Made by a program: the position numbers and the translations under genes. DNA of 64,000 bases, from IMG/VR virus record IMGVR_UViG_3300042691_013609, positions 57,239 through 121,238 of that record; one strand, given 5' to 3'. The DNA comes from a virus. Shown here piece after piece: positions 8,128 through 8,714 of the stretch. The stretch's first letter is position 1; every line of letters begins with the position of its first letter. The notes beneath the pieces were generated by a model that worked only from the letters and a program-made list of their open reading frames with translations, searched no databases and was not told where the DNA came from.

Positions 8128-8197
8128 TTGCCGTAGTTGGACTCGAACCAACACCCCACACCATACCATGTGTGTGGGTAACCTATATGCTACGGCA
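8128..8197 (-). tRNA. tRNA-like RNA 1, 70 nt, no D arm, anticodon uncertain
   Basis: The ends form a 7-bp acceptor stem (TGCCGTA / TACGGCA) plus discriminator A. A perfect T arm follows the tRNA pattern (GTTGG, loop TTCGAGT, CCAAC). The middle 38 nt do not form a cloverleaf; they contain a linker (GCATATAGGTTA) and a 7-bp stem (CCCACAC / GTGTGGG) closing a 10-nt loop ACATGGTATG. If it has an anticodon, GGU (Thr) preceded by U and followed by A fits best. No CCA is encoded. The sister at 8645-8714 supports the fold by compensatory changes. Confidence 0.55.
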
Positions 8198-8204
8198 AAT
8201 TCTG

Positions 8205-8585
8205 TTATACGGAGGCGAGAGATAGAGCATCCTCCACAGCATCCTCATAGGTGTCAAATACACCTAATACAGACACTACATTAGTGCCTTTTATAAGAAG
8301 AACACTATGCTTGTCACCTTCACCTGTCCACTGAACACATAAGAACTCATGCGCCTTCACGGCAGCACTTAATTCTTCAGCAGAAGTGATGCCTGTAAAT
8401 TCCTCAATGGTCTTAGTCCAAAACTGAAGACCGCTCCACAAATCAGAGGGTTCTGCACCCTCTACATATTGCAGAAGAGGGTAGAATCCTTCACACCCAT
8501 TGTTCTCAAGAAAGGATACTAAACCACAATGGTGGACATGAGATGTCATCTCAGACACTTTACCATTTACTAAATACTTTGCCAT
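8205..8585 (-). CDS. Hypothetical protein, 126 aa
   Basis: The start is taken at ATG 8585 (MAKYLVNGKVSEMTSHVHHC); a longer reading from 8627 adds 14 residues and has a weaker context. Acidic, mixed alpha/beta protein with HVHHCG near the N-terminus, a W-x-G-L-x-F-W segment (residues about 50-57) and a C-terminal EDAVEDALSLA helix. It sits tightly between two tRNA-like genes (8 bp from the first). No family recognised. Confidence 0.65.
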   Translation of the reverse strand: MAKYLVNGKVSEMTSHVHHCGLVSFLENNGCEGFYPLLQYVEGAEPSDLWSGLQFWTKTIEEFTGITSAEELSAAVKAHEFLCVQWTGEGDKHSVLLIKGTNVVSVLGVFDTYEDAVEDALSLASV

Positions 8586-8644
8586 AATAAATAAAATTTG
8601 TGCAATGCCTTTATTGTTTACAGACATTGCGGGTTAATTAATAG

Positions 8645-8714
8645 TTGCCACAATGGGACTCGAACCCATACCACAAGCCATACCATGTGCGTGTGTATCC
8701 AATATGCTGTGGCA
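8645..8714 (-). tRNA. tRNA-like RNA 2, 70 nt, sister of the one at 8128
   Basis: Same plan and exactly the same length as the first: acceptor TGCCACA / TGTGGCA plus A, T arm ATGGG-TTCGAGT-CCCAT, and a central stem CACACGC / GCTTGTG with one C-T mismatch, closing the identical loop ACATGGTATG. Between the two genes, acceptor pairs 5-65 and 6-64, T-stem pairs 46-62 and 48-60, and central pairs 21-42 and 25-38 change on both sides and stay paired. That is evidence for selection on this fold. Amino-acid identity cannot be assigned. Confidence 0.55.

Follow-up and report, generated by a model that had tools for sequence, protein, structure and literature searches.

What kind of RNA is encoded where a phage genome carries two copies of a tRNA-like sequence that lacks the D stem? 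Two such elements, each of 70 nt and on the minus strand, are found 447 bp apart in the window, i.e. the whole 64-kb stretch of DNA analysed, which is part of a 121-kb record. A preliminary description, whose coordinates are correct, presented these twins (copy A and copy B) as D-armless and tRNA-like and offered a tRNA, a mimic or a decoy as possible roles. The features are listed in Table 1.

Table 1. Positions of the two tRNA-like elements, their parts and the intervening open reading frame (window coordinates)
Feature	Position	Strand	Remarks
tRNA-like RNA, copy A	8128..8197	-	U1 at 8197, discriminator A73 at 8128; minus strand TGCCGTA GCATATAGGTTA CCCACAC ACATGGTATG GTGTGGG GT GTTGG TTCGAGT CCAAC TACGGCA A
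Copy A acceptor stem	8191..8197; 8129-8135	-	5' strand TGCCGTA; 3' strand TACGGCA
Copy A connector	8179..8190	-	GCATATAGGTTA; corresponds to the 5' side of a D arm, GG included; without pairing partner
Copy A central hairpin	8155..8178	-	7-bp stem CCCACAC/GTGTGGG; loop ACATGGTATG at 8162-8171
Copy A T arm	8136..8152	-	GTTGG-TTCGAGT-CCAAC
tRNA-like RNA, copy B	8645..8714	-	U1 at 8714, discriminator A73 at 8645; minus strand TGCCACA GCATATTGGATA CACACGC ACATGGTATG GCTTGTG GT ATGGG TTCGAGT CCCAT TGTGGCA A
Copy B acceptor stem	8708..8714; 8646-8652	-	5' strand TGCCACA; 3' strand TGTGGCA
Copy B connector	8696..8707	-	GCATATTGGATA
Copy B central hairpin	8672..8695	-	CACACGC/GCTTGTG, one C/U mismatch; loop ACATGGTATG at 8679-8688
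Copy B T arm	8653..8669	-	ATGGG-TTCGAGT-CCCAT
ORF between the copies	8205..8627	-	likely real start ATG at 8585, 126 aa

Structure of the elements

Both copies display a perfect 7-bp acceptor stem and a 5-bp T arm with a TTCGAGT loop, as first described. The T loop has the canonical TTCRANY form, and the stems differ between copies by compensated changes. A strict descriptor (7-bp acceptor stem, 5-bp T arm and TTCRA loop) run over the whole 121-kb record detects the twins, a tRNA-Leu and a tRNA-Met and nothing else; on eight first-order Markov genomes it yields 0 or 1 match each. A 12-nt connector takes the place of the D arm, and U8 and A9 are absent from both copies as their sequences are read. 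The central stem of 7 bp closes an identical 10-nt loop, ACATGGTATG, in both copies. The earlier account of a long stem with a shared loop is accurate, except that the stem is imperfect in copy B. The 3' end of the twins is AC without an encoded CA, as in the phage's own tRNA-Leu, and both copies are preceded by T and followed by CTATT.

Unconstrained folding of copy A gives the proposed structure (-28.6 kcal/mol, z -2.6). Copy B adopts it only when the acceptor stem and T arm are imposed, at no more than 0.2 kcal/mol from the free optimum, which is a competing fold of nearly equal energy. A D stem common to both copies was found neither by constrained folding nor by model alignment, which bears out the D-armless label, and constrained folding found no common 5-bp/7-nt anticodon arm. 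The acceptor stem, the T arm and the missing D arm are as in a D-armless tRNA; the central hairpin consists of a 7-bp stem and a 10-nt loop, and a 7-nt loop, AUGGUAU, is obtained only by bulging one A. A pseudoknot between connector and loop (CAUAU/GUAUG) is possible on paper, and both partners are invariant between the copies. The 10-nt loop has no other perfect complement elsewhere in the 121-kb record.

The preliminary description named a standard cloverleaf as the finding that would speak against it; ARAGORN, the Rfam tRNA model and constrained folding yielded none. ARAGORN calls neither copy as a tRNA, and the tRNAs it does call, the tRNA-Leu in the window and the tRNA-Met in the remainder of the record, are ordinary cloverleaves. 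The Rfam tRNA model (RF00005) scores the copies at 22.0 and 21.9 bits, below the cut-off of 29, with an alignment that covers the acceptor stem and T arm only and forms no D arm. Neither copy is matched to tmRNA by ARAGORN or cmscan.

Divergence between the copies

The two copies differ at 15 of 70 positions, and 13 of these differences are at paired sites. Twelve of the 15 make up six compensated pairs, two each in the acceptor, central and T stems, and the paired changes reported earlier as support for the fold are thus confirmed; the thirteenth is the C/U mismatch in the central stem of copy B. Stem positions changed at 13 of 38 sites and unpaired positions at 2 of 32 (Fisher p 0.007), the two unpaired differences flanking the connector GG, one on each side. 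Six compensated pairs arose in 0 of 200,000 trials with random placement of the changes, and in 5e-6 of trials when the changes were confined to paired sites.

Similarity is limited to the RNA itself. From the base before the acceptor stem to just past the 3' end, identity per 20-nt block is 16, 16, 17 and 14 of 20; outside the RNA it is 5-9 of 20, so that background is reached at once. Since the similarity ends at the RNA edges, the twins did not arise simply by recent duplication of a longer segment. Taken together, the six compensated pairs, the conserved unpaired positions and these sharp edges show, in a fold comparison that rests on two sequences, that selection acts on a discrete folded RNA. 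Unconstrained recent duplication, which had been named as a second outcome that would count against the elements, is not seen; the divergence itself displays constraint, though no outside relatives were found in the collections searched. Attachment-site (att) repeats were considered and dropped, since such repeats are identical and the copies have diverged with compensation.

Origin of the acceptor stem and connector

What had been termed a linker is present and unpaired, but it is not arbitrary: the connector, GG included, resembles the 5' side of a regular D arm. As an IMG/VR pattern, GCATATnGGnTA matches ordinary phage tRNAs whose D loop is closed by pairing of GCAT with nTGC; this 3' partner strand (nTGC) is missing from the twins.

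The acceptor end consists of U1-A72, G2-C71, C3-G70, C4-G69, A73 and C74, and thus displays the tRNA-Gln type (U1-A72, G2-C71, A73 and a similar stem). In an unbiased tRNA set from one genome (32 tRNAs scored of 34 called), tRNA-Gln(TTG) shares 11 of 15 acceptor-end positions with both copies and every other tRNA at most nine. A covariance model, R1, was built from the twins, which themselves score 104-106 bits. Among the best matches to R1 in 299 Saprospirales genomes, ordinary tRNA-Gln accounts for 14 of the 20 loci that were examined; the seven best in a phylum-wide sample of 396 Bacteroidota genomes are six tRNA-Glu and one tRNA-Gln. These comparisons make the acceptor Gln-like, with Gln/Glu as the nearest isotype group, the genomes being proxies that may not be the host's.

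Bacteroidota tRNA-Gln (UUG/CUG) share with the twins U1-A72, G2-C71, A73, the preceding T, the following C and a T arm near that of copy A; C3-G70 and C4-G69 are likewise present in most of those seen. These tRNAs are the best model matches in Saprospirales. Unlike the twins, they contain U8 and A9, their D stem is paired, and their 5-bp/7-nt anticodon arm carries a Gln anticodon. No Gln anticodon (UUG or CUG) follows U33 in the loop ACATGGTATG. Because a Gln-type acceptor goes together with a loop lacking a Gln anticodon, a tRNA that decodes in the usual way is disfavoured and the balance tips towards a mimic.

Distribution

One other IMG/VR contig carries the identical stretch. Pattern scans of IMG/VR (loop plus T arm; connector plus T arm; acceptor, connector and T arm) found no relative beyond this contig, the patterns being narrow enough for distant relatives with other loops to escape; the remaining matches fall on ordinary tRNAs or coding sequence or are due to chance. 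In phages and plasmids, BLAST with the region or with individual copies matched at most T-arm-sized or other short pieces. The covariance search that had been suggested was run with R1 on the 299 Saprospirales and 396 Bacteroidota genomes (partly overlapping sets) and on eight crAss-type phages; no match exceeded 36 bits, and the matches examined are tRNAs or single degenerate tRNA-like sequences.

A syntenic relative (contig G004) has a terminase 78% identical and flanking genes in the same order. Its corresponding interval, 0.58 kb vs 1.75 kb here, lacks both the tRNA-like elements and the palindromes described below. Several other related contigs are fragments that end short of the twin region. 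As far as searched, the twins are confined to one phage species.

Some loci in related phages were observed in passing. In the related phage the interval next to the twins' syntenic place (17080-18000 of L099) has about 0.9 kb without convincing genes. Bohxovirus PV686213.1 displays, near 73052-73124 (L183:1504-1576), an odd tRNA missing from the annotation; its anticodon is called as 4 nt (tatg), its loop is enlarged and its acceptor stem is mismatched. The crAss-type phage cr6_1 (NC_055894.1, 39675-39752; L186:1501-1578) has a tRNA-like sequence with perfect acceptor stem and T arm that is missed by ARAGORN and whose anticodon arm looks shrunken.

Genomic setting

On sequence grounds the record belongs to a crAss-like phage. 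The capsid protein has a match to Pfam Crass_capsid, the terminase and the portal have matches to the PHROGs families with these functions, and Cellulophaga phage phi14:2 (order Crassvirales) has the closest annotated terminase. The twins are found in an early region of small minus-strand ORFs, where the G+C content is 38-48% (window 5500-11000) vs roughly 28-38% beyond about 11 kb and some 30-37% for the phage apart from this region, and they flank one ORF (Table 1) whose stop codon is about 7-8 nt from copy A. No known family or relative of this ORF was found, and its fold prediction (mean pLDDT 45) is unusable. Among the matches listed (25 of 30 Pfam families, for 47 early-region ORFs), no tRNA-repair or tRNA-nuclease family is present.

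The same region contains 15 copies of a near-perfect palindrome, GTTACCTCCGAGGTAAC, usually within GTAGTTACCTCCGAGGTAACTAC, at window positions 4043-10806. They are mostly between small ORFs, sometimes within an ORF, and one copy has a terminator-like U run. The palindrome is absent from the remainder of the 121-kb record and from the syntenic relative. A search of bacterial genomes gave two single-site matches and identified no host. A Saprospiraceae MAG contig (L103:7369-7385) displays the same palindrome once, with a second imperfect copy about 30 nt on, possibly a hint at the host, a shared element or chance.

A promoter-like repeated box, TATCTTTG, is found at 9283-9290 and could start the transcription unit that holds the twins; as a pattern, the box is no commoner in the window than chance.

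Possible roles

The acceptor stem, the T arm and the D-loop GG are the parts of a tRNA that are read by tRNA end-processing enzymes and EF-Tu. These parts are kept in the twins, and for this reason processing by host enzymes and a role as mimic are favoured. Since divergence between the copies has preserved the odd shape, functional mimics of tRNA are a more probable reading than defective tRNAs. We infer a pathway in which the twins, paralogous RNAs derived from tRNA, gave up the D stem and the normal anticodon arm and kept what end-processing enzymes and many tRNA-binding proteins would read: a Gln-type acceptor stem, a T arm and a D-loop GG able to contact the T loop. An early phage transcript would be cut by host RNase P and 3' nucleases, and the released RNAs would be given CCA. 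Rather than decode, they would then tie up a protein that binds tRNA, which might be GlnRS or another synthetase, a nuclease directed at tRNA or some comparable factor. This full account is put forward tentatively, at somewhat short of an even chance. Counting against it are the fold of copy B, which is not its unconstrained optimum, and the mismatch in its central stem. So do the phylum-wide model matches, mostly tRNA-Glu, with a Gln comparison made on proxy genomes, and the lack, among the matches listed, of a tRNA-related phage protein that would suggest a partner.

A broader possibility, though not a likely one, is that the twins are natural, maintained RNAs of tRNA type without a D stem, which would pass through the tRNA pathway with processing, CCA addition and possibly charging, and would serve either to decode by the GGU loop or as an independent acceptor domain like that of tmRNA. 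The tRNA-like domain of tmRNA shows that a functional elbow can be built from a T arm and a D loop that has no stem (PMC3968760), and an evolved E. coli strain can use a designed tRNA without D arm (PMC11551756); the fold is therefore compatible with processing and even with charging. In its strict form, with true D-armless translating tRNAs, this is rather unlikely. A lengthened anticodon stem would offset the lost D stem, as in mitochondrial tRNA-Ser, and the loop would read as U33-GGU-A37 with one A bulged, for the Thr codons ACU/ACC. A decoding loop would be in keeping with U33, the purine at 37 and the invariance of the loop, the phage often uses the codon ACT (28 per 1000), and the designed tRNA used by E. 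coli is a D-armless His tRNA (PMC11551756). However, the acceptor is of Gln and not Thr type, a bulge or a 10-nt loop is needed, two genes would carry the same anticodon, and the record's two cloverleaf tRNAs give no sign of a general drift to D-armless forms. Mimicry of the tmRNA domain, which has the same T arm, stemless D loop and helix in place of the anticodon arm (PMC3968760), is most improbable, as pair 3-70 is C-G and not the G-U alanine signal and no tmRNA model matches.

Other readings assign the RNA a lesser or more special task. The twins might serve as punctuation or stability elements of a polycistronic early mRNA, i.e. as structures on either side of one small gene that protect the transcript or mark it for cutting by RNase P and RNase Z, much like tRNAs in mitochondrial transcripts, with a released RNA that has no further job. 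This has a low but appreciable probability: the twins are tightly placed between same-strand ORFs, copy A starting 8 nt after a stop codon, and palindromic hairpins are found in other intergenic gaps of the unit, but neither an identical 10-nt loop nor a Gln-type acceptor in both copies would be required. Degenerate tRNA pseudogenes, kept by chance after duplication, are improbable. Phage tRNA genes do decay and single odd tRNA-like sequences occur in other crAss-type phages, yet decay should not keep pairing while the sequence changes, and here six compensated pairs accompany an invariant loop and connector (the two positions beside the GG apart). A role as decoy for a host anticodon nuclease, or for some other defence that cuts tRNA, would be a special case of the mimic, and a very unlikely one. 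Phage tRNAs are reported to evade host defences that target tRNA (PMC10264068, PMC11555353), but the evasion known so far relies on complete tRNAs, and the anticodon loop, the usual target, is the part of the twins that is not tRNA-like. Of the roles first offered, the mimic is thus the one to which acceptor and loop lean, and nothing points specifically to an anticodon nuclease.

The twins represent a natural variant of tRNA-like RNA shapes already known. The closest, in shape only, is the D-stem-less tRNA-like domain of tmRNA, with acceptor stem, T arm, stemless D loop and a helix replacing the anticodon arm (PMC3968760); the twins differ in having no mRNA-like part, no tag frame and no G3-U70, and their helix is a short hairpin with a 10-nt loop. 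The D-armless mitochondrial tRNA-Ser of metazoa similarly has an acceptor stem, a T arm and no D arm, together with an anticodon-type arm to which the central hairpin of the twins may correspond (PMC7609411); it is organellar and decodes, whereas the twins belong to a viral and bacterial setting and lack a plain 7-nt anticodon loop. The TMERs of MHV68 are also virus-encoded tRNA-like sequences handled by host tRNA enzymes (PMC7773990); these are, however, RNA polymerase III genes of an animal virus, linked to microRNA hairpins. A 2024 paper states that, to its authors' knowledge, a tRNA lacking a loop or stem-loop is unknown in bacterial translation (PMC11551756). The twins would be a natural D-stem-less RNA in a bacterial setting, either an adaptor or a mimic exploiting the host tRNA machinery, and would point to tRNA-like genes missed by standard tRNA finders.

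Other repeats in the window

A repeated block is found at 7311-7375 and 9269-9333 (also at 5762-5813 and 1830-1881), with TATCTTTG or TATATTTG on the minus strand. These motifs resemble the -7 box of Bacteroidota promoters, and the blocks are probably phage early promoters. A 55-nt repeat, 93% identical, is present at 5302-5356 and 19375-19429, 14 kb apart, in intergenic or gene-end positions. Very long collagen-like repeat proteins, likely tail or fibre proteins, are encoded at 46684-49368 and 53789-57019.
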